From assembly GCA_030765805.1 (NCBI GenBank), contig JAVCDH010000048.1, forward strand, positions 1 through 64,000: 64,000 nt of DNA, read 5' to 3'. Shown piece after piece: positions 7,665 through 64,000 of this stretch. The notes under the pieces were generated by a model. The model was not told the DNA's origin. It worked only from the letters and a program-made list of their open reading frames with translations, and searched no databases. Position 1 is the first letter of the stretch; the number at the start of each line of letters is the position of its first letter. The DNA comes from Candidatus Euphemobacter frigidus (GTDB lineage Bacteria; Auribacterota; Erginobacteria; Erginobacterales; Erginobacteraceae). The translations under genes were made by a program, and so were the position numbers.

Positions 7665-9329
7665 ATGCGTTATTTATTTCTTCTTCGGCGGGATCAATTG
7701 AGGAATGGTCTTCGCGAATTGCTAAAAAAGGGGCGGATGAGGTTCTTCATCGGCGTTTTCGTTCTCCTGGTGGTCGGGGCGGGGATCTTCGCTGGTTTCT
7801 ACCGGAGTTTTCTCTTCCTTCAAACTTTTCTGGGGGTGGGAGAGATTCTGATCGACCGGCTGATCTATCTTCTGACCTTTGCTCTCTTTATTATGCTGAC
7901 CTTCAGCAATACGGCAATCTCTTTCCAGCTTCATCTCAAGGGCGACGAGACCGCCTACCTCCTTACCCTCCCCCTCCCCCACTCTATCGTATTCCGGTTC
8001 CTGCTCCTGGAAGGGATCTTCTTGAGCACCTGGGCCACAGTCTTCCTCATCTTTCCCGTGATTCTGGCTTATGGGCTGACCCATCAACTCTCTCTCTATG
8101 CCTACCTCTCGCTTCCCTTCTTCGCGGCCGGGTTGGCCATTCTGGCCGCGTTGATTGGAATTCTGATCGCCGCTTTGATCCCGCGCCTATTAATGTTGAA
8201 AAAGACCAAAATAGCGATTATCATAGTAATTATCTCGATCGCCCTCTCCGCTCCCCTCTGGCATAAACTAATTCCCGCCGTTGCACCTGACACCGGGCGG
8301 GATGTACTCCTCCTCAACAAGCTGCTCGATCATAGCCGGATCACACTCAGTCCCCTTCTTCCCGGGTTCTGGGCCGCGGAGGGATTTATCCAGGCCGCAA
8401 AAGGAAGAGTTGTCAGGTCGCTCGGATTTCTCGCGGTACTGACGGTCAACGCTCTCTTGGCCTGGCAGGTCGTCGAGCTGACTGTTGAACGAACATATAT
8501 TAAAACCTGGTCTATCTATCACAGCCGTAGAGCGCCGAAGAAGAAAAAGTTACACCGTAAGGGGAAGGAAGCGTTATCGGCAGTCTTTTCCTTCCTCCCC
8601 TCTCCCACCCGGGCGCTCCTGGTCAAGGACCTGAAGACATTTCTCCGGGAACCGGCCCAGTGGCTCCAGGCGGTAATCCTCTTCGGACTTTTAACTATCT
8701 ATATTCTGAATATCAAGAACATGCCTCGTAACGTCTATCAACCCTTCTGGAAAAACCTGATTACGTTTTTCAACATGGGGGCTACTTCGCTGATCCTGGC
8801 TACACTAACCACCCGCTTTGTCTACCCTTCGTTCAGCCTGGAAGGGCGGACGTTCTGGGTGCTGGGTCTGACTCCAATTCGAAGATCGGCCATCTTCCGG
8901 ATCAAGTTCTGGTCCAGCTTTATCGCGGCAGTTGTGGTTACCGTGCCATTGATGCTCCTCTCCAATCACATACTGGAGGTCTCCGGCTTGATGACGCTGA
9001 TTACCTGCGGGGCGATAGTATTGATGGCGGGGGTACTGGTGAGTTTAGCGACCGGGCTGGGAACAATCTTCCCTCAATTCACCGAAGATAACCCGGCCCG
9101 GATCGCTTCGGGATTCGGCGGGACCCTCAACCTTATACTCAGCCTGATCTATATCTCGCTTATGGTCGGCGCGCTGGCACTCGCATGTCACCCAGGGGAA
9201 ATGGGGACGGCCGCCGGTCATTCCCTAACCCCCGTGCTCGCGGTGGTCTTCGTCCTGCTTCTTTCCATCCTGGGGAGTTACCTCCCGTTTAAGCTGGGTA
9301 TCCGGGCACTGGAGAAATGTGAGTTTTAA
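7665..9329 (+). CDS. ABC-2 type transporter permease
   Basis: I place the start at the ATG at 7665 (MRYLFLLRRDQL), with GGGA about ten bases ahead. The frame is open back to a GTG at 7572, but that extension is only (VTK)n from the minisatellite plus ten residues. The 554-residue protein has two sets of hydrophobic segments separated by a soluble loop of about 120 residues (WSIYHSRRAPKKKKLHRKG...). This fits a duplicated exporter permease of at least ten helices. It should form the membrane channel for the ATPase encoded just upstream. The substrate is unknown. Confidence 0.85.
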   Translation: MRYLFLLRRDQLRNGLRELLKKGRMRFFIGVFVLLVVGAGIFAGFYRSFLFLQTFLGVGEILIDRLIYLLTFALFIMLTFSNTAISFQLHLKGDETAYLLTLPLPHSIVFRFLLLEGIFLSTWATVFLIFPVILAYGLTHQLSLYAYLSLPFFAAGLAILAALIGILIAALIPRLLMLKKTKIAIIIVIISIALSAPLWHKLIPAVAPDTGRDVLLLNKLLDHSRITLSPLLPGFWAAEGFIQAAKGRVVRSLGFLAVLTVNALLAWQVVELTVERTYIKTWSIYHSRRAPKKKKLHRKGKEALSAVFSFLPSPTRALLVKDLKTFLREPAQWLQAVILFGLLTIYILNIKNMPRNVYQPFWKNLITFFNMGATSLILATLTTRFVYPSFSLEGRTFWVLGLTPIRRSAIFRIKFWSSFIAAVVVTVPLMLLSNHILEVSGLMTLITCGAIVLMAGVLVSLATGLGTIFPQFTEDNPARIASGFGGTLNLILSLIYISLMVGALALACHPGEMGTAAGHSLTPVLAVVFVLLLSILGSYLPFKLGIRALEKCEF

Positions 9330-54155: not shown

Positions 54156-54941
54156 TTAAAGGGCTTCCAATATCTTAAGAAGTAACTCCTTCAGGTCCTT
54201 CCGACTGTTAAAATCCACCATCAATTGTTCTGTTTTTTCGCCCTGCCGGATAGAGATGCCTTTCCACCACTTCGGCCCTACCACTCTTTTGATATCCCGC
54301 TCCATGGCGTTGAATTCCTTCTCCTCCGGGCTAAGCTCACTCGGCGGCCGCGCCTGGTCGACCAGCAGCGCTGTCTGCGTGATGGTGAGACCGTCGTTGA
54401 TAACGCGATCCGCTATCTTGAGCTGCGCTTCCTGATCTCTCAATTTCATCAGGACCTTGGCGTGACCGAAGGTGATGCTGCTTTCGTGAACGTACTTCAA
54501 TACCCGGGGATGGAGGATATGGATCATCCGCAGAAAATGAGAAGCTGTTGTCCGGTCTATCCCCAGCTTTTCGGCCAACTCTTCCTGGGTATATTTATAG
54601 GTCTCTATAATCTCCTGCATCGCCATCGCCCGCTCCAAAGGAGAGAGATTGAGCCGGACGATATTCTCCACCAAGCCCTTGATTAAAATATCCGCTCCTC
54701 CCTCGCTGTCCTTATCGACCGCGGGGATCTTCTCCCACCCGAGTTGATCCATCGCGTAGAGTCTTCTCTCCCCGGCAATCAGTTGAAAATAATCCTTCTT
54801 CTTCGAGACGACAATCGGGCAGAGCAGGCCGTGGGTTTTAATCGAATTGACCATATCTTCGATATCCACCCTCCCGCTTTTGAAACGAAGTCGATATCCC
54901 TCAATCTTTATTTTATCCCGATCGATCATCAAGAGTTTCAT
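54156..54941 (-). CDS. parB: ParB family protein, copy 1
   Basis: The 261-residue protein has the ParB CTP-binding N-domain (PIVVSKKKDYFQLIAGERRLYAMDQLG, with the GERR motif), a VENIVRLNLSPLERAMAMQEII segment and a helix-turn-helix (YTQEELAEKLGIDRTTASHFLRM), followed by a C-terminal domain of the usual size. AAGGAG lies ahead of the ATG. It differs from copy 2 at only about a dozen of 261 positions. A parS-like palindrome lies 23 bases upstream of the start codon. No parA is adjacent. It may still bind chromosome partition sites, or it may regulate this island. Confidence 0.9.
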   Translation of the reverse strand: MKLLMIDRDKIKIEGYRLRFKSGRVDIEDMVNSIKTHGLLCPIVVSKKKDYFQLIAGERRLYAMDQLGWEKIPAVDKDSEGGADILIKGLVENIVRLNLSPLERAMAMQEIIETYKYTQEELAEKLGIDRTTASHFLRMIHILHPRVLKYVHESSITFGHAKVLMKLRDQEAQLKIADRVINDGLTITQTALLVDQARPPSELSPEEKEFNAMERDIKRVVGPKWWKGISIRQGEKTEQLMVDFNSRKDLKELLLKILEAL

Positions 54942-55089: not shown

Positions 55090-56133
55090 CTATTCGCCCA
55101 AGAAGGTCCAACGTGCACCCCGGCCTTTCCCTACACAGACAACCCGATTATTCTTTTTCAGGCTGCCCAATATGGTTTGAATCCATTCCCTGCCAACGCC
55201 GGGACAGTCCGCCTCTAGTTCTGAGAGTGAAAATGGATTTTGTATCTTCTTCAATGCATCGAGAACCAGCTCCATTTTCGCGCCCCGGGGTGCTTCCATC
55301 TCGCCGACTCGGGCTTCAAACTCCCTGTAGGCTTCTTTGAGGATGAAGAGCAGGTAGTTTATGTAGGGCCAAGGATCATGTTTCCTCTGATGCCAACCCT
55401 CGGAACTGATCCGTAGGGTTTCATAATAGCGTTCTTTATTCTGTTCAATGATTCGTTCCAGACTGATGTATCGTCCAACTTCAAATCCAAGTCGATAACA
55501 GGACAAAAGCAGGAGAAGCCGAGACACCCGTCCATTGCCATCACGAAACGGATGAATGCATAAAAAATCCAGATTAAGGGCGGCTAACAGGATCAAGGGA
55601 TGGATTCGAACATTCCTCAGTCCTTCGTCGAATTCCATCATCAATTCGCGTACGGCGCCCGGCGTTTCTTTAGGAGAAACAGTTTTAAAACGTATGGTCC
55701 GTTCTCCCTTCGGTGAGAGTTCGATAATATCAACGGGCTTCTCTTTGTACCGGCCCGCATCCCATATTTCTCCCCGGCATAGTGTGTGTAACCGTAAAAC
55801 CGTTTGTTCGGAAAGTGAGATATTTTTACATTCCGAATGAATCCAGTTCAATGCTGAGCGATATCCCGCGACTTCTTCTTCGTTGCGGTCTTTATAAATC
55901 GGGGTGCCGAACATCACGATTTTGATCCGGGTTGGGTCCACTTCTACGCCTTCAATACGGTTGGATGAAACGGCGCTTTCAATGAGAGCGTGTTCACGAA
56001 GCGCCTTTAATTTTTGCGGAGACTGGCGCGTAAAAAGCTCCTGCTTCCCTCGATACTCGGTCAAATTCGCAATCAACCACCCGGTCGCCATGGGGATGGA
56101 CGGATGCTTATCTAACATTTTTAATGTCTTCAT
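55090..56133 (-). CDS. Fic family protein (probable AMP-transferase)
   Basis: The 347-residue protein contains the full Fic motif HPFRDGNGRVSR with catalytic His and the phosphate-binding loop. An N-terminal inhibitory-type segment (SAVSSNRIEG, matching the S/TxxxE-G/N motif) identifies an auto-inhibited class II Fic enzyme. The C-terminal 80 residues form a winged-helix-like domain (PFSLSELEADCPGVGREWIQTILGSLKKNNRVV). Fic enzymes usually AMPylate target proteins, and some are toxins. It lies between two nearly identical parS-parB units and hairpin repeats, which suggests a mobile or selfish cargo gene. Confidence 0.9.
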   Translation of the reverse strand: MKTLKMLDKHPSIPMATGWLIANLTEYRGKQELFTRQSPQKLKALREHALIESAVSSNRIEGVEVDPTRIKIVMFGTPIYKDRNEEEVAGYRSALNWIHSECKNISLSEQTVLRLHTLCRGEIWDAGRYKEKPVDIIELSPKGERTIRFKTVSPKETPGAVRELMMEFDEGLRNVRIHPLILLAALNLDFLCIHPFRDGNGRVSRLLLLLSCYRLGFEVGRYISLERIIEQNKERYYETLRISSEGWHQRKHDPWPYINYLLFILKEAYREFEARVGEMEAPRGAKMELVLDALKKIQNPFSLSELEADCPGVGREWIQTILGSLKKNNRVVCVGKGRGARWTFLGE

Positions 56134-56358: not shown

Positions 56359-57144
56359 TTAAAGGGCTTCCAATATCTTCAATAGTACTTCCTTCAGGTC
56401 CTTCCGACTGTTAAAATCCACCATCAACTGTTCTGTTTTTTCGCCCTGCCGGATAGAGATACCTTTCCACCACCTCAGCCCTACCGTTCTCTTGATATCC
56501 CGCTCCATGGCGTTGAATTCCTTCTCCTCCGGGCTAAGCTCGCTCGGCGGCCGCGCCTGGTCGACCAGCAGCGCGGTCTGCGTGATGGTGAGGCCGTCGT
56601 TGATAATGCGATTCGCTATCTTGATCTGCGCTTCCTGATCTCTCAATTTCATCAGGACCTTGGCGTGACCGAAGGTGATGCTGCTTTCGTGGACGTATTT
56701 CAATACCTGGGGATGGAGGATATGGATCATCCGCAGAAAATGAGAAGCGGTTGTCCGGTCTATCCCCAACTTTTCGGCCAACTCTTCCTGCGTATATTTA
56801 TACGTTTCTATAATCTCCTGCATCGCCATCGCCCGCTCTAAAGGAGATAGATTGAGCCGGACGATATTCTCCACCAAGCCCTTGATTAAAATATCCGCTC
56901 CTCCCTCGCTGTCCTTATCGATAGCGGGGATCTTCTCCCAGCCGAGTTGATCCATCGCGTACAGTCTTCTTTCCCCGGCGATCAGTTGAAAGTAACCGTT
57001 CTTCTTCGAGACGACAATCGGGCAGAGGAGACCGTGGGTTTTAATCGAGTTGACCATATCTTCGATATCCACCCTCCCGCTTTTAAACCGCAGGCGATAG
57101 CCCTCGATCTTTATCTTTTTCCGATCGATCATCAAGAGTTTCAT
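56359..57144 (-). CDS. parB: ParB family protein, copy 2
   Basis: This second 261-residue ParB repeats copy 1 with about twelve substitutions (for example Asp-Lys to Lys-Lys near residue 9, Lys-Asp to Asn-Gly near 48, Val-Gly-Pro-Lys to Val-Gly-Leu-Arg near 232). GERR, the LSPLERA segment and the helix-turn-helix are intact. The DNA identity extends upstream through the ribosome site and the parS-like palindrome and stops close to the stop codon on the other side. Its upstream bases resemble the third palindrome region more than the first. Both copies appear functional. Confidence 0.9.
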   Translation of the reverse strand: MKLLMIDRKKIKIEGYRLRFKSGRVDIEDMVNSIKTHGLLCPIVVSKKNGYFQLIAGERRLYAMDQLGWEKIPAIDKDSEGGADILIKGLVENIVRLNLSPLERAMAMQEIIETYKYTQEELAEKLGIDRTTASHFLRMIHILHPQVLKYVHESSITFGHAKVLMKLRDQEAQIKIANRIINDGLTITQTALLVDQARPPSELSPEEKEFNAMERDIKRTVGLRWWKGISIRQGEKTEQLMVDFNSRKDLKEVLLKILEAL

Positions 57145-57330: not shown

Positions 57331-58371
57331 TTATGGCCCTATTTTCTTGCAATTAATCCGGTCTTCCAGTTCTCGCAGGTTCCGGATGATTTGCTCCCAA
57401 GCCAGAGCCTCGCCAAAGATCATTTCCCGCATACGGGCATAATCGGCCCGAAGTATAGGCATGCGTTCTTCTGGAGGTACGAGGTGGAAATTACCTGATG
57501 TGGCCGTCTCGTAGTGCGCCCAGGCTGATGCAAAGAACAACTGCTTGTGCGCGACAACACGATCGAGCAAGGAGCAGCGATTAAGTGCCTGTTGGCCGAT
57601 ATCATGCTGCGAGAGCTGGCAGAGATCGTAATAATGGCGCGATATACCTTCTGCCGCGGGCTTGTCTGTCGGCCGATGGAATTCAGCATGGAGGATCGTA
57701 GCCTTCTCCCAAAAGGACCTCCGTGCGTCCAGAACGTATACCCGGCACGAAGTGGCCACCTTGAACGCCTGAGGAAATACTTCGGCCGCGTATGGTCGAA
57801 CTTCGTGATATTCGGCAGGCCAATCGTCAGAACGCGCCCCCATTTCGAGTCGTATGGCTGGACGGATATAGCCCGGCAACTTAATTTCCATGTCGCTTCG
57901 CGGATACGTGAAGATGACAGTTTGAGGATCGGTCGTATCTATTTCAAGGCTCCAATCCAAATCGCCGATCACCGACACAAAGTCCGTACGAAGTGCCGGC
58001 AGCAGTCGATCACGGATTACCTGCCGGCACGCGGCGACCAGAGCTTTAATGCGGCGCCGGGATTCTTTACTGCTAATTCCGATTTGCTCCGGATCGCGGT
58101 CATCCGCGAAACCAAGGCCTCGTCGGCTGAGCGAAAGATCCACGTCTTCAGAGAACCGTTCTATCGCATCATAAGCTTTCGATAACGATGTCCCCCCCTT
58201 GAAGATCATCTGCGGTCGAAACTGCATCACCTCATAAATGCGATGCAATACCCAGCAAACCCAAAAATCCTTTTCAATGATTGCGGGTGACCGAACCGGG
58301 TGCAGAACTGGTGCCGAACGTCGGAAAAGTTCCGCGCGTTCCTGTTGATGGGCCCGGGCGATTCGATCCAT
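57331..58371 (-). CDS. AbiEii/AbiGii-type nucleotidyltransferase toxin
   Basis: The 346-residue protein has the nucleotidyltransferase motifs of the family: FKGGTSLSKAYDAI (Gly-Gly-Thr-Ser motif) and RFSEDVDLSLSRR, with the Asp pair that binds metal. VRSPAIIEKDFWVCWVLHRIYE is the family's conserved leading segment. AbiEii proteins are toxins of type IV toxin-antitoxin systems that act in phage abortive infection. The start overlaps the antitoxin stop by one base, so the pair is translationally coupled. Confidence 0.88.
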   Translation of the reverse strand: MDRIARAHQQERAELFRRSAPVLHPVRSPAIIEKDFWVCWVLHRIYEVMQFRPQMIFKGGTSLSKAYDAIERFSEDVDLSLSRRGLGFADDRDPEQIGISSKESRRRIKALVAACRQVIRDRLLPALRTDFVSVIGDLDWSLEIDTTDPQTVIFTYPRSDMEIKLPGYIRPAIRLEMGARSDDWPAEYHEVRPYAAEVFPQAFKVATSCRVYVLDARRSFWEKATILHAEFHRPTDKPAAEGISRHYYDLCQLSQHDIGQQALNRCSLLDRVVAHKQLFFASAWAHYETATSGNFHLVPPEERMPILRADYARMREMIFGEALAWEQIIRNLRELEDRINCKKIGP

Positions 58372-58988
58372 CAGTTCTTTTCCTCACGAGCGATTAGCTC
58401 GATAATTGGCTTCAGCCAGGCAGGGGCATAACGGAGGTTGCGTTTCAACTCCTTTTTGTCTTTTGGGGAGAGTTTCGAGTGGAGATGGCCGATTATATCC
58501 GGGGTTACTCCATTCTTTCCGAGGTGGCGGAGTGCCTGGAAGAAGAACGGAGCGGTCTGTCCCTTCACGTCCATCGTCTTGGGCCCACGGTTAAGCAGTT
58601 TGATAGAGTAAGGACCGATCGTCACTGTTCTGGTTCGCCCGTTTGTATAGTAAGTAATCTTTGCCGGAACCTGTGTTGTGAGCCCGAGCATGTTAGCTGC
58701 GTAGGCGCCGGATGGGATAACACGCAGTCCGTTCTTCCGAGCCCACACCTTGACCAGCTCGTCCGGTGACTGAATCATCGGCTCATTCAGTAGCCTGCCC
58801 ATCAGAGGGATCTCATACAACCCACGTCCTACCCGGTGGATCTCTCCCTGCCGGACCAACCGGGACAGTGCCTGAGCCACGGCGCCCCGTGTTCCAAGAT
58901 CCAATAAATCTCTGACCGGGACAGCTTCGCCCTTCCTTGCAGATAGTCTCGCAACTATCTTTTCAGCAATAGGATGCACAACTTTCAT
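58371..58988 (-). CDS. AbiEi-like antitoxin (DUF6088 type)
   Basis: The 205-residue protein has an N-terminal winged helix (ARLSARKGEAVPVRDLLDLGTRGAVAQALSRLVRQGEIHRVGRGLYEIP) and a C-terminal alpha/beta domain (RVIPSGAYAANMLGLTTQVPAKITYYTNG). Antitoxins of this family bind inverted repeats in their own promoter and neutralise the AbiEii toxin. A perfect 13-bp inverted repeat lies just upstream at 58998-59029, in the position of such an operator. The toxin gene follows directly. Confidence 0.85.
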   Translation of the reverse strand: MKVVHPIAEKIVARLSARKGEAVPVRDLLDLGTRGAVAQALSRLVRQGEIHRVGRGLYEIPLMGRLLNEPMIQSPDELVKVWARKNGLRVIPSGAYAANMLGLTTQVPAKITYYTNGRTRTVTIGPYSIKLLNRGPKTMDVKGQTAPFFFQALRHLGKNGVTPDIIGHLHSKLSPKDKKELKRNLRYAPAWLKPIIELIAREEKN

Positions 58989-59035: not shown

Positions 59036-59128
59036 TTATCTTGTCCAGCGCGCAAGTCTAATTGCAAGCCACCTACAGAGAATTTGAAGAACGAGCGGTA
59101 TCAATACCGGTTTATCACCTTGTTTCAT
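59036..59128 (-). other. 30-codon reading frame in place of parB behind the third parS-like site
   Basis: The conserved parB leader (AAGGAGATTAGGCC) and its ATG are present at 59128, but the codons that follow (MKQGDKPVLIPLVLQILCRW...) do not resemble ParB and end after 30. It may be translated as a leader peptide of the abiE transcript, or it may be a chance frame left by deletion of parB. Confidence 0.35.
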
Positions 59129-59150
59129 GGCCTAATCTCCTTATACACAA

Positions 59151-59172
59151 AAATGTGCCACGTGGCACATTT
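59151..59172. promoter_or_regulatory. parS-like palindrome 3, orphan copy upstream of abiE
   Basis: The 22-bp palindrome is identical to the two parB-linked copies. The surrounding 80 bases, including the ribosome site on one side and TTTTGTCAAGTATTT on the other, are also conserved. No parB follows; the next gene on that strand is the antitoxin at 58988. Confidence 0.7.
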
Positions 59173-59231
59173 GAGCGTAAAATTTAACTTTTCAAGAGGT
59201 TTGTCTCGTCTTTTTGTCAAGTATTTCTAAT

Positions 59232-60455
59232 TCATCCCAGGAAGCTACTCTTTTTGGTGTGATACCTCTTAGCCAACTTATAAAAAACTTGCAACTCTGA
59301 ATATGTCCGGAAAGAGTACCTATCTTGAAATTGATAAAATGGGGTTTTGGAAATTTCCACATCAAATTTCCTCTGCATCTCCTTTGAGCTTATGATAAAG
59401 AGTCTGGTCTGGAATTGGGTTAGCTGGTGGAGTCTTAACAACCCCTTAGTAATATCTGTCGTATGTTCCACTTCAAAGGCATAAACCGGGAAATCATCTT
59501 TAAGCCAGATAACATCAATACGTTGGACTGTGTGAATAATCCTGCTCATAGAAAAATGCGGAATATTTTTTAACGATGTGATCTCCGATAAAGGAGTACC
59601 ATTATAAATCTTTGATTTATCCGCGCAGTAGGTATCAAATCCCAATAAATTACCTAATTCAATCAGCATCCCTTCAATTTCTTCATGCTTGAATTGAGCT
59701 TTTTTCTCTACCTTTTGAGGTAACTCCTTTGGTGGATGATATTCAATAATCTTCTTATAATCTAACGCTTCTATTTTTCTTACGCCTCCCTGGAGATATA
59801 CACCATATATTTTCTCTTTCTTAATAAAATCCAGTCGCCCTACTAAATCTTGGATAGGTTTTGGTTGTTTCCAGGATATTATATTCTTCAAGAGGATGGC
59901 ATATTCTCCATCGAATAAAACACTCTGCAATTTTCGTTTAGCGATTTCCTCTTCTGAAAGTCGATAAATATTTTTGGAAATTTCGGCAGTCCCTATAAAC
60001 GTTTGCCCCTTTTTACCGGCTTGATAAAAAACTATCTTTGTTCCGGTTAATAATTCCCTCCTATTAGGAGTTCTTTCATTAATCCCCCAAACTCCTGTTT
60101 GCATAAGTTTGTCGTAAACCTCTCTGGCGGGAAGAAATTGCCCCTCTTTTCTGATATCGTTTACCACAAAGATAAAATGCTTCCCTCCCTTCTTGGCTGA
60201 AATCTCTTTTTCATAGTTGTCGGCAGGCTCAACCCATTTTCTTAAGGCGAAAATCCCTTTACCCAGACTCTGAAAAATACTTCTATCTCTTTTTTGCTTA
60301 ATATCCTGATTAAGCTGAGCGTTCATCGTCGCCCAGGGCGTCTTCCCGGAAGTTTCAAGCATCCCTTTTTCCTGAGCAAGATCTGTTATTTGCCGGTAAT
60401 TTAGAGGTTTGCCCACACTCTCTAAAATTTTTTCCGCAGCCTTCTTAAAATTCAT
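59232..60455 (-). CDS. HARE-HTH domain protein with PD-(D/E)XK-like C-terminal domain
   Basis: The 407-residue protein starts with a HARE-HTH domain at about 1-75 (NFKKAAEKILESVGKPLNYRQITDLAQEKGML...WATMNAQLNQDI). A second, related segment lies at about 90-165. The C-terminal part contains RIDVIWLKDDFPVYAFEVEHTTDITKGLLRL, with Asp and Glu-x-Glu in a nuclease-like arrangement, then FQTRLFIISS. HARE-HTH domains are linked to restriction enzymes and DNA modification. It overlaps the upstream nuclease-like gene by 11 bases and is AT-rich. A restriction or defence role is likely, with the exact activity unproven. Confidence 0.7.
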   Translation of the reverse strand: MNFKKAAEKILESVGKPLNYRQITDLAQEKGMLETSGKTPWATMNAQLNQDIKQKRDRSIFQSLGKGIFALRKWVEPADNYEKEISAKKGGKHFIFVVNDIRKEGQFLPAREVYDKLMQTGVWGINERTPNRRELLTGTKIVFYQAGKKGQTFIGTAEISKNIYRLSEEEIAKRKLQSVLFDGEYAILLKNIISWKQPKPIQDLVGRLDFIKKEKIYGVYLQGGVRKIEALDYKKIIEYHPPKELPQKVEKKAQFKHEEIEGMLIELGNLLGFDTYCADKSKIYNGTPLSEITSLKNIPHFSMSRIIHTVQRIDVIWLKDDFPVYAFEVEHTTDITKGLLRLHQLTQFQTRLFIISSKEMQRKFDVEISKTPFYQFQDRYSFRTYSELQVFYKLAKRYHTKKSSFLG

Positions 60456-61212
60456 TTTTTCGCCCTTTTAATACTCTTATGAATTCGTCGCTTTCATAAA
60501 GAATGTGATCTACACCTTTTGGATCCACAATGAATATTGCATGGAAATGATTTAGATTTGTTATATATGAAATACAGTTGATATAAATATTCTTCTCCGA
60601 AAATTGATATTGGTTTAATAAGAGAAGAATTTTCCCAAATTGGATTTTTTGTAGCTTCTTTGCTTTTAATGATACTAAACGATTGAATAACCGACAAGCC
60701 TCTGCCTGAATTTCTTCCTCATATTTGACTCTTGTTGGCCCAATAAATCCAATAACTGACAGAGAACGATTTATTTTCTTAACTATACATTTGAACGAGT
60801 TTTGTTCAAAAACATTAATCTCAGATGACTTTGAAAAGTTTGTAGTTTTTGACAAGAAATCAAGAATTCTTTTCTCAAGAACTTTTTTAATCCTCCCGAA
60901 ATTAGGAAATGGGCGGTTAAACTTAATAAAATAATGTCCCTGTAATATATTTTGATCTAAGGCCTTTTGTTCTATTGATTTTGTCAATTGCCTCATTGAA
61001 TTCAGAATAGATAATATGGGAAATTCTTTTTCTGCGACTTTTAATATATCCATGATTGTAGTAACTTCAACAGCATATTTGTTACTCCCGATTGAAAGGT
61101 AATAATCAGGTGGCTCATCTCCTTTTTCCCATTGAACATTCTCACATCTTTTAATATCTACTAAAAAAGAATTAAATCTCTCCTTGCAAAATTCTTCTCT
61201 CTTGGAACCCAT
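60445..61212 (-). CDS. Probable PD-(D/E)XK-type nuclease of unknown family
   Basis: The 255-residue protein contains GDEPPDYYLSIGSNKYAVEVTTIMDI, in which Pro-Asp and a following Glu-Val-Thr fit the core of a PD-(D/E)XK nuclease with a non-standard third residue. The rest is Lys/Asn/Ile-rich and has no recognised domain. The gene is strongly AT-rich, like the neighbouring 3' half of the type IIG gene. It overlaps the HARE-HTH gene by 11 bases and follows the IIG gene after 132 bases on the same strand. The three are probably expressed together. Confidence 0.55.
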   Translation of the reverse strand: MGSKREEFCKERFNSFLVDIKRCENVQWEKGDEPPDYYLSIGSNKYAVEVTTIMDILKVAEKEFPILSILNSMRQLTKSIEQKALDQNILQGHYFIKFNRPFPNFGRIKKVLEKRILDFLSKTTNFSKSSEINVFEQNSFKCIVKKINRSLSVIGFIGPTRVKYEEEIQAEACRLFNRLVSLKAKKLQKIQFGKILLLLNQYQFSEKNIYINCISYITNLNHFHAIFIVDPKGVDHILYESDEFIRVLKGRKNEF

Positions 61213-61344
61213 ACTAATAAATTCTCTATATAATGAAATAACCTTTCCTTAAAAATGTTATGATGAAATATGGTTTATCTTATTTTTAAGTTTAAAATTC
61301 TTACACGTATTTTCTTCTAAAAAAGCCCTGAAGTAGCGGTAAAA

Positions 61345-64000
61345 TCATTTTAAAGATTCCTCTACAATCCTAATTTCTTTTCCACTCAATCCATATAATT
61401 CATAAACAAGCTGATCGATTTGGTTGTCGGTGGCTTTGATCTGGCGCTCAAGTTGTGTTTTTTCTAGCGGTGATCTAGCTTTTTTAGCCTTTTTCTTCAA
61501 CTCTAAAATCTTCTCTACTTGTTTAACTACTCGATCATGGCTTTCTTTATCCATGGGATCTAGAAAGTTCATTTGTGGAATCGGCAGTCTATCTAAATGC
61601 ACTTTCTTTAATTGAGCAATGCTCTTCCTGTTCGTGATCAATTCATTTGTGTAATAAAAGTTGCAAAATTTAGAATTAATCAACCCAAGAATAAATTCGT
61701 ACTTAGCCCGAGATTTTTTATTAAATAGAAAATACAGAGACTGCTCCGGGAAAAGATTAGAATTGTCCAATGTAGCAATTAGACGATCACCAGTTTTTCT
61801 AATCAAAATTTTAGGCCTTGCGCCTAATTTTTTTTCGTCAGTTGTTCTTCCTGTAATATTTTCTCTTTTGAATTCAAACCAATAACTTTTTTTCATCATG
61901 TATCGATCTATGCTGTCTCCTTTTAAAACTTCAATCTGGGATGTCTTTTCTTTATTTTCGGTTATAAGTGAAGACTTCCCACCAAAACCAGACGTTGATT
62001 CACAAACTTGCTCCAACAGAAAAAAATTTTGGTTTTTAATTTTCTCAATAACATCCATAACTTCTTTTGATTCATAATACTGGAAAATATAATAAGGATT
62101 ATCCGAGAATTTCTTTTGTAAGATTTCAACACAAGGCTTCCCAAATTCACCTATACAGACTTTCTTCATGGCTGGGGATTTCGCTATTTTGCTCAACACA
62201 AAAATCAAAGTATCTGCTGTTACCACTGGGAATGGGGCATTGTATTGCAAATAATGAATATAAAAACCCTTGAGAATTCTTTTTCTTAAACTAATAAACT
62301 GTTCATTGAAGCCTAATCTGTCTGGAACAATGAAGCTAAAAAACCCTCCTTTAGTAACCAGATTAAGACCTTGGGCGATAAAATATTCATACATATTTGG
62401 AGCATAAGTATTTCCTTCGAATTTGCAGACTAAATAATCAATTTGTCTTTTTGACAACATCAGGGAACCAAAGCGTCCTGAAAGAGATATCCATGGTGGA
62501 TTACCGATAACGGCATCGAAGCCGCCTTTTTGCATAATCTCCGGGAATTCGGCGTTCCAATCGAAGGCGTTGATTTTTTCGCGGTCTTCGGGGGTAAAGG
62601 AAATGAGATTGCTTCGGTGCTCCGCACCTCGCAATGACGGGATGGAGGATTGGTCCATCTCATAAAAATCGGGTCCGATCAGGGAGTTTCCGCATTTGAT
62701 GTTGTTACCCAGATCCGGCAGCGCCCTCTCCCGCCAGAGTTTCATCTGCCGCTCCAGCGTATCCTGATTCTCGTTCTCCAGGACCTTGAGGAGGAGACTG
62801 AGCTTGGTTACTTCCACCGCCTGGCTGTCGATATCCACACCATAAATGTTGTTGAGCAGAATCCGCTTCTTCTCCCGGGTGGTGAGATACCACTGGCCGC
62901 CCTTCCCCTGATAGATCGGCATCTCGGGTTTCTTGCCGGGCACGTATTTTCGGAGAGCAGTCTTTGAGATATATCCTTTATGGCCCAGCTGGGGGATAAG
63001 GTTGTTGAGATACCAATCCCGGTGATAGTCGTTCAGATAGGTATAAGCGCCGATCAGAAAAGAACCGGAACCGCAGGCGGGATCGAGTATCCGTAGTTTC
63101 TCTATCTTTTTCGGTGTCTTGCCCTCGCAGAGTTTTCCGATGGTATTCTTGACGATATAATCGACGATATAGGTCGGCGTATAATATACCCCGCCGGCTT
63201 TACGGACTTCCGGTTTCTCCTCAATCTTAGCGTGATGTCCCTCGGTCAGCGTAATGACTTTTCCCAGAAACTGCTCATAGATGTTGCCGAGAATATCCGC
63301 CCCCAAGACCGAGAATTCATACGGGCTTTCCGGGTAATAAAGCTGTTTGAAGATCTCCTTCAAGACTTTGTCATCAATCTTGAGGCCGAGCGTCAATTCG
63401 TCGGGAGGCGTTATTAAATCTTTCTCCTGTCGAAAGTGAAAGAGCCCGGAGTTGTATTTATCATCGGCCAGGCGATATACCTTCTTCAGACGTTCATATA
63501 TATCGGTTCCATTTATTAAGGCCTGCAGTTGGCCATAGGATTCAATTCCCCGATCTTCGCAGATGCGGAGGAAGATAATCCGGTCGATCGTTCTCTGGAC
63601 GGCAAAGTTGACTTCCTGTATTCCCAGGGAAGGATTTCTCAGAGCAATATTCCGCGCCAGGAGCGTTCGCCAGTTCTCAATCTCCTTGAGAAATTCCACG
63701 TCGACTTCCTGGGTGGTTCTCTTCCGTTTGGATTCGACGTATTTATCAAAGAGCCCTTCGAGAACCGCCTGCTTGGAGAAGATGGAGGTGATCTCTTCCC
63801 ACCTGTCCAGGTATTCTTTATAAGCAAGATAGATAACCCGAGCATTGCCAGGTTTATCCCCGAGGTGAGGGCGGACGCGGCAGTCATAGACGGCAAACTC
63901 TTCAAAGTCGGTGAGGATCGAGAGGGGGAGCCCGGCGGACCAGGCATAGCGGCGGAGTTGGTAGGCGGGGCTGACCTCCCCTTTTATATCAACGGAGGGT
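61345..64000 (-). CDS. Type IIG restriction-modification enzyme (Eco57I-like), 5' end beyond right edge
   Basis: The frame is open from the right edge, so a GTG at 63699 is not the start; about 100 further codons (including LTDFEEFAVYDCRV) are visible upstream. The protein then has DVEFLKEIENWRTLLARNIALRNP and the adenine methyltransferase domain with SAM-binding DPACGSGSFLIGAY and catalytic NPPW (near 62500). The C-terminal half holds the target-recognition region and ends with a helical segment. The N-terminal nuclease domain is partly outside the window. The 3' part beyond about 62470 is AT-rich while the 5' part is not. A dispersed palindrome at 62605-62639 is translated within the linker before FTPEDREKI. 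Confidence 0.9.
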   Translation of the reverse strand, partial: PSVDIKGEVSPAYQLRRYAWSAGLPLSILTDFEEFAVYDCRVRPHLGDKPGNARVIYLAYKEYLDRWEEITSIFSKQAVLEGLFDKYVESKRKRTTQEVDVEFLKEIENWRTLLARNIALRNPSLGIQEVNFAVQRTIDRIIFLRICEDRGIESYGQLQALINGTDIYERLKKVYRLADDKYNSGLFHFRQEKDLITPPDELTLGLKIDDKVLKEIFKQLYYPESPYEFSVLGADILGNIYEQFLGKVITLTEGHHAKIEEKPEVRKAGGVYYTPTYIVDYIVKNTIGKLCEGKTPKKIEKLRILDPACGSGSFLIGAYTYLNDYHRDWYLNNLIPQLGHKGYISKTALRKYVPGKKPEMPIYQGKGGQWYLTTREKKRILLNNIYGVDIDSQAVEVTKLSLLLKVLENENQDTLERQMKLWRERALPDLGNNIKCGNSLIGPDFYEMDQSSIPSLRGAEHRSNLISFTPEDREKINAFDWNAEFPEIMQKGGFDAVIGNPPWISLSGRFGSLMLSKRQIDYLVCKFEGNTYAPNMYEYFIAQGLNLVTKGGFFSFIVPDRLGFNEQFISLRKRILKGFYIHYLQYNAPFPVVTADTLIFVLSKIAKSPAMKKVCIGEFGKPCVEILQKKFSDNPYYIFQYYESKEVMDVIEKIKNQNFFLLEQVCESTSGFGGKSSLITENKEKTSQIEVLKGDSIDRYMMKKSYWFEFKRENITGRTTDEKKLGARPKILIRKTGDRLIATLDNSNLFPEQSLYFLFNKKSRAKYEFILGLINSKFCNFYYTNELITNRKSIAQLKKVHLDRLPIPQMNFLDPMDKESHDRVVKQVEKILELKKKAKKARSPLEKTQLERQIKATDNQIDQLVYELYGLSGKEIRIVEESLK
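62605..62639. repeat. CATTGCGAGG...CGAAGCAATCTC repeat inside the type IIG gene
   Basis: The unit GAGATTGCTTCGG...CCTCGCAATGACG has the same ends as the inverted pair at 20911-21000. On the coding strand it is read in frame as SLRGAEHRSNLIS, adding about twelve residues between the SAM domain and the NPPW motif without disrupting the frame. Confidence 0.8.

Follow-up and report, generated by a model that had tools for sequence, protein, structure and literature searches.

Type IIG restriction enzymes restrict alone. What, then, are two nuclease-like genes doing directly downstream of one? The locus that raises this question belongs to Candidatus Euphemobacter frigidus (draft genome of 2.26 Mb) and lies on contig C2 (JAVCDH010000048.1; 97,562 bases), whose positions 1–64,000 are called the window here. 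The minus strand carries all three genes: the type IIG gene (61345–63999 in the window, whose edge it crosses; the full gene reaches contig position 64278 and encodes 977 residues), gene A (60445–61212; 255 residues) and gene B (59232–60455; 407 residues). An earlier note, made from the sequence alone, had placed three same-strand genes here, two of them overlapping by 11 bases, and the gene coordinates agree with it. A represents an undescribed family with a predicted PD-(D/E)XK-like core (residues 4–98). B contains a HARE helix-turn-helix (HARE-HTH), an EVE domain and a type II-like restriction endonuclease domain. Based on this domain content and on published families, we see an even chance that the three genes make up a stacked restriction cassette, with unmodified DNA as the target of the IIG enzyme and modified DNA as that of B.

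Under this explanation, the IIG enzyme would modify the host's own sites and cut unmodified foreign DNA, and B would catch phages whose modified DNA evades it. Recognition of a modified base would fall to the EVE domain of B, aided by the HARE-HTH, and cleavage near that base to the PD-(D/E)XK-type domain; the analogy of other EVE enzymes suggests a modified cytosine, the kind of base for which EVE is best known. A, linked to B through translation, would serve it as a nuclease-like partner, in the role of accessory subunit or of second nuclease. Gene order, domains, conserved residues and predicted folds are what the data show; in this scheme we infer the base read, the cleavage, the cooperation of A with B and the sparing by B of the mark set by the IIG enzyme. 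If the explanation is correct, restriction of unmodified and of modified DNA would be joined in one cassette, and a nuclease with two different proposed modified-base readers would offer a test of how EVE and HARE-HTH divide recognition between them.

The start of B sits within the 3′ end of A, and the overlap of 11 bases (ATGAATTTTAA) is of the kind typically expected for translational coupling. This observed overlap is the source of the role in which we infer A to work with B. The gap between the IIG stop and the A start measures 132 bases and contained no promoter-like or terminator-like match when scanned, so read-through from the IIG gene into A is possible. Both small genes are genuine rather than chance frames, as homologues of A occur in several phyla (lowest phmmer E 2.7e-50) and B has two domains above Pfam cut-offs in addition to a nuclease of a large family.

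Domains and relatives of protein B

The N-terminal HARE-HTH of B (59232–60455 being the whole gene, the domain occupies 60234–60455, minus strand; residues 1–74) matches PF05066 with an E value of 2e-18 and 67 bits, against a Pfam cut-off of 25.9. It is followed by the EVE domain, a predicted modified-base reader (59742–60104, minus strand; residues 118–238; PF01878, E 6e-5). A search of Protein Data Bank (PDB) sequences agrees on this assignment (2p5d, UPF0310 protein MJECL36, E 3e-5), and the domain is of the MJECL36/PRK00809 type. It is the sole EVE match found in this genome. The C-terminal nuclease domain (59256–59708, minus strand; about residues 250–400) was assigned to PADLOC REase_II PDLC03534 and carries D314 and E328-x-E330. 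These residues, in the arrangement D-x(13)-E-x-E, are conserved in distant homologues together with T333, G338 and R341, and the domain falls in a family already known from type II restriction enzymes. The earlier note had recognized the HARE-HTH and a nuclease-like core, both of which are present; it had overlooked the EVE domain between them.

In the AlphaFold2 model of the whole protein, the mean predicted local distance difference test score (pLDDT) is 48.3, and the nuclease domain reaches about 75–87 over most of its length. The helix-strand order of this domain is compatible with a PD-(D/E)XK fold, and its best fold matches are type II enzymes, namely BsaWI (probability 0.92), BsoBI (0.69) and EcoT38I, none of them at E 0.001. 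A profile search with the B nuclease in PDB sequences gave no match. As the model is poor outside the nuclease, the claims concerning EVE and HARE-HTH rest on sequence profiles. HARE-HTH has been suggested as a reader of adenine methylation or cytosine modification (PMC11037411), and fusions of HARE-HTH with restriction endonucleases have been proposed to discriminate modified DNA (PMC10853773). With two proposed modified-base readers joined to a nuclease of a known restriction family, B is best read as a predicted modification-dependent (type IV-like) restriction enzyme. Its EVE and HARE-HTH domains point to a candidate for autonomous recognition of modified DNA, an option absent from the earlier note.

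A hand-made DNA pattern retrieved relatives of the B nuclease; peptide patterns taken from A or B alone matched nothing in the viral and genome contigs searched. The nearest relatives by sequence form a group of bacterial proteins of about 245 residues with a HARE-like HTH (E 1e-28 against L105), this domain being recognized below the cut-off in L107 and L109 and by alignment in L105 and L106. Fusions to EVE were found above the Pfam cut-off in L074 and below it in L112 and L078, L074 and L078 being viral contigs. Other relatives are associated with methyltransferases. In the bacterial locus L070, the nuclease comes after an N6/N4 methyltransferase gene; on the viral contig L073, it lies beside a C5 methyltransferase and Vsr; and on the viral contigs L072, L075 and L077, it adjoins D12 N6 methyltransferases at short spacing. 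Methyltransferase fusions with the nuclease at the C-terminus were detected in L069 and, by motif only, in L010. Plasmid relatives are proteins of 420–437 residues in which Pfam shows neither HARE nor EVE, and no DNA methyltransferase is annotated near them at the three loci read. On plasmids of Variovorax and Sphingobium (L011 and L012), such stand-alone proteins are encoded close to copper-resistance genes.

No similarity was detectable between the EVE domain of B and the EVE parts of other EVE-nuclease proteins, so that fusion of EVE to nucleases of this family seems to have happened repeatedly. Among 392 genomes from the phylum of G052, a Phycisphaerales metagenome-assembled genome that holds locus L043, 68 matched some part of B, and none of the matches extended over all three domains. 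Within the samples examined, B is, as judged from its domain profiles, a new combination of known modules. Two-gene sets resembling A–B were observed at L106:403–1538, L104:51–2247 and L078:206–1713. In these, an HTH- or EVE-fused relative of the B nuclease is followed by a second nuclease-like or uncharacterized gene, encoding DUF6997, DUF6996-DUF6997 or a PD-(D/E)XK-like open reading frame (ORF) of 135 residues.

Family and predicted fold of protein A

Protein A matched no family at a meaningful level in Pfam, PADLOC, NCBIfam, PHROGs or PDB sequences, and tblastn searches of plasmids and phages gave no match (in plasmids even at E 10). Within its own phylum, one homologue was found among 44 genomes, a protein of G010. 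A DNA pattern derived from the PD...EVT motif retrieved 37 stretches in 84,980 species genomes, 12 of which are clear A homologues by phmmer, including the own-phylum genome already found; the other 25, many of which seem to be different proteins that share a PDF...EVT motif, were not confirmed and were left out. Profile searches added two more, giving 14 further loci besides the present one. The family is rare: in two phyla it was detected in 2 of 400 genomes and in 3 of 392, respectively (counts that include genomes already known to be positive). It is also widespread, being scattered through bacteria of several phyla.

Residues E6, PPD34-36, AVE47-49, T51, K146 and K183 are invariant, a conservation that is partly by construction, as the search pattern either required or preferred P35, D36, E49 and T51. 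E6, P34, G92, Y94, K146 and K183 were not imposed by it, and the G010 protein, found before the pattern existed, has the same motif. The model of A is of good quality (mean pLDDT 88.4, predicted template modelling score 0.79) and predicts an alpha-beta-beta-beta-alpha-beta core, with helices at residues 4–20 and 65–86 and strands at 26–30, 37–41, 44–52 and 92–98. D36 lies right before strand 2 and E49 within strand 3, as a PD-(D/E)XK fold expects. The catalytic Lys expected two residues past the Glu was not found; this place is taken by Thr51 in all aligned members. The search pattern required this Thr, but the G010 protein, retrieved independently of the pattern, has it as well. The role of the catalytic Lys might be filled by K146 or K183. 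Structure searches in PDB and BFVD returned no significant match, nor did a profile search in PDB sequences return any. The likelier of the partial, non-significant structural matches are members of the PD-(D/E)XK superfamily, namely TSEN15, Hjc, RecU and VRR-NUC. The model thus describes A as a nuclease-like protein with a predicted PD-(D/E)XK order and Thr in place of Lys. The earlier note had expected nuclease-like folds in both small proteins, and structure prediction supports this for A (mean pLDDT 88) as well as for B (matches to BsaWI and BsoBI). What gives the family its interest is that it is undescribed and, on the predicted fold, nuclease-like with a conserved Thr for Lys. A wider Thr-variant group perhaps exists, as many other proteins of diverse bacteria share the motif PDF...[FY]G[VI]E[VIM]T, in which Thr likewise stands where the catalytic Lys would be (L018–L023, L028, L033, L035–L041, L045, L046, L049 and L051–L054).

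As far as the contigs reach, several being only 3–5 kb long, none of the 14 further A loci has A beside B or a IIG gene. The neighbours of A homologues are mostly unrelated or housekeeping genes. Three homologues adjoin other nucleases: one lies beside a DUF7669-NucS protein (L008), one overlaps a gene for a VRR-NUC-like protein by 4 bases (L102) and one is next to an HNH/Mrr-like cluster, itself located after a methyltransferase-like ORF (L071). An expected recurrence of A with B was dropped, since a B-type nuclease was present in 3 of 12 genomes with A, each time on another contig. Each of the two families occurs near restriction genes in some genomes, and, as far as the contigs reach, their homologues were not seen side by side.

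The type IIG gene and the history of the locus

The type IIG protein combines an N-terminal HSDR_N nuclease, an N6-methyltransferase/Eco57I domain and a TaqI_C specificity domain in one chain and matches PADLOC REase_MTase_IIG with an E value of 4e-155; its identity is as the earlier note had proposed. A second IIG copy is present in the same genome on contig C41 (L006:12726–16882). The N-terminal halves of the two genes are shared (86.6% DNA identity over 62495–64282; GC content 51%), whereas the specificity part, the target recognition domain (61461–62490, minus strand; 33% GC), is unrelated to that of the C41 copy. The last 110 bases of the gene (61343–61452) are again similar, with 82.7% DNA identity. 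The C41 copy is followed, with a 4-base overlap, by a different gene, which encodes a weakly Mrr-like protein of 394 residues (QVKRK motif; GC content 29%). That copy is itself directly preceded, with an overlap of 4 bases, by genes for an HTH protein and an AbiEii-like toxin.

Neither A nor B was found downstream of any of the eight other IIG relatives with a readable downstream side. In some relatives, other small genes lie a short way downstream, among them an HNH_5-like one in G010. The downstream gene varies between relatives, and in most Chloroflexota relatives it is absent or unrelated. The idea that this IIG family regularly brings A or B was dropped, as no relative read shows either. 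The specific coupling to IIG genes that the earlier note had envisaged did not recur, as far as the contigs reach, in any of the 14 A loci or of the eight IIG relatives.

Composition and local sequence hint at a shared past. The GC content at third codon positions is 0.31 in the IIG specificity half, 0.26 in A and 0.39 in B, compared with 0.64 in the IIG N-half and 0.56–0.60 in the AbiE pair that follows; the specificity half, A and B are therefore one AT-rich compositional block. About 40 bases past B begins a leader (59122–59192, minus strand) that elsewhere in the genome precedes a parB-like gene. Here it is truncated just past the start codon and is likely the 3′ end of the cassette. It contains a 16-bp palindrome, TGTGCCACGTGGCACA, at 59154–59169, with a parS-like CACGTG core; three exact copies of the palindrome are present in the window, where none is expected by chance. 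On C41, the same leader is found 37 bases past the 394-residue gene. An AT-rich block with this leader at its end suggests a joint acquisition of A, B and the IIG specificity half in the form of a single cassette, and such co-acquisition would allow a functional link of A and B with the IIG enzyme. Beyond the earlier note, the analysis thus adds the EVE domain of B, the family identity of its nuclease, a defined A family with a fold model, the lack of repeated IIG pairing and the local evidence of co-acquisition.

The parB-like gene itself is present in three near-identical copies (95–97% protein identity), at 54156–54941 and 56359–57144 in the window and at C41:16984–17616. Every copy is preceded by the leader with the palindrome, and no ParA-like gene was noticed alongside. 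Each comes after a defence or toxin-antitoxin set (AbiE, Fic, or IIG plus the 394-residue gene), as if the copies marked cassette ends. Downstream of the A–B cassette, on the same strand, lie an AbiEi/AbiEii pair (57331–58988) and a gene for a Fic-domain protein (55090–56133). Beyond the window edge, 15 bases separate the IIG gene from an upstream pair of genes for an Xre/MbcA-type antitoxin and a RES-domain toxin (L004:8295–8762 and 8803–9138, equivalent to 64294–65137 of contig C2).

Alternative explanations and known systems

Several observations weigh against the division of labour proposed for the IIG enzyme and B. The EVE match, at 23.5 bits, is barely above the Pfam cut-off of 23, and the EVE region of the B model is of low confidence. 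Type II-like arrangements, with the nuclease next to or fused with methyltransferases, are seen in L070, L072, L073, L103, L107 and L069, and by motif only in L010; since the family also provides the restriction half of ordinary type II pairs, modification dependence is not intrinsic to the nuclease. The A–B partnership is based on one overlap in one genome. To our knowledge, no tested enzyme has exactly the architecture of B.

It is unlikely, though by a smaller measure than for any other alternative, that A, B and the IIG gene merely happen to share a defence island, with A maybe inactive or serving a non-defence role. The variable, mostly housekeeping surroundings of A homologues and the stand-alone B-type nucleases on plasmids would fit such an arrangement, which accounts poorly for the A–B overlap and for a single compositional block running from the IIG specificity half to B and ending at the parB-like leader.

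The same block bears on a second alternative, which we consider rather unlikely, namely that A and B, or B alone, constitute a type II restriction endonuclease without a methyltransferase of its own, the host being shielded by IIG methylation at the same or an overlapping site. Specificity and nuclease would then appear to have moved jointly, and the nuclease family of B is often paired or fused with methyltransferases of several classes. However, a homologous A or B is missing downstream of all other IIG relatives that could be read, so this endonuclease is not repeatedly linked to that methyltransferase; B has an EVE reader, which ordinary type II enzymes lack; and IIG enzymes need no partner for restriction.

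Two-subunit restriction enzymes are known, and A and B might likewise form one heteromeric endonuclease in which each subunit is part of the active complex. This arrangement, which is compatible with the stacked cassette, strikes us as quite unlikely: the 11-base overlap and the three A homologues that adjoin other nuclease genes (L102, L008 and L071) favour it, but the partners of A homologues vary, most have no nuclease neighbour, and A is without the usual Lys. A further, more ambitious reading is improbable. In it, the IIG specificity half, A and B would move as one exchangeable cassette owing to a joint function, as a two-nuclease, double-sensor (HARE-HTH and EVE) module matched to the IIG specificity, in which the Thr-variant A would gate or complete cleavage by B.

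Equally improbable is that A and B are backup effectors, perhaps suicidal, acting upon inhibition of the IIG enzyme or of its methylation: comparative-genomics papers propose that restriction endonucleases, some of which carry a fused HARE-HTH, back up BREX and Dnd as effectors, and small genes follow some IIG relatives, two of them nuclease-like (the weakly Mrr-like gene on C41 and the HNH_5-like gene in G010), but the gene downstream of IIG is never the same and most Chloroflexota relatives have none there or an unrelated one, no sensor that would register IIG failure is visible, homologues of A exist without an adjacent IIG gene, and no BREX or Dnd core genes were seen among the neighbouring ORFs read. 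The two ideas of the earlier note, effectors triggered on failure and a system shielded by the IIG methylase, are thus possible at a lower probability than the stacked cassette.

Several known systems resemble parts of this stacked cassette. For A, the predicted core topology and the Asp and Glu positions are those of the PD-(D/E)XK superfamily (Hjc, VRR-NUC, TSEN), from which it differs in having Thr for Lys and in giving no significant structural match and no family profile match. The C-terminal nuclease domain of B is that of PADLOC REase_II PDLC03534, which comprises type II enzymes beside C5 or N6 methyltransferases. Unlike these, B is without a dedicated methyltransferase, and the members seen directly beside a methyltransferase are without an evident EVE (except possibly L120, which is convergent to one). 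Like the HARE-HTH–restriction endonuclease fusions of Dnd and BREX (PMC10853773, PMC12839542), B joins these two domains and is encoded near a modification gene; unlike them, it has an EVE in between, and its neighbour is a type IIG gene rather than Dnd or BREX.

Candidate type IV enzymes of the EVE-PD(D/E)XK kind form an established class (Bell et al. 2020, PMC7641849), with the EVE-HNH enzyme VcaM4I as a biochemical cousin (PMC7897488). B shares with this class an EVE reader and a nuclease in one chain and the lack of a dedicated methyltransferase gene. It differs by its additional N-terminal HARE-HTH, and its EVE, of the MJECL36/PRK00809 type, differs from those joined to this nuclease in other proteins. 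At the level of the whole locus, the closest parallel is the island in which BREX and a type IV restriction enzyme provide complementary protection (PMC8565348). The enzymes of that island are unrelated to those described here, BrxU being of the GmrSD family, and the predicted split is alike, with one enzyme restricting unmodified DNA and the other modified DNA.

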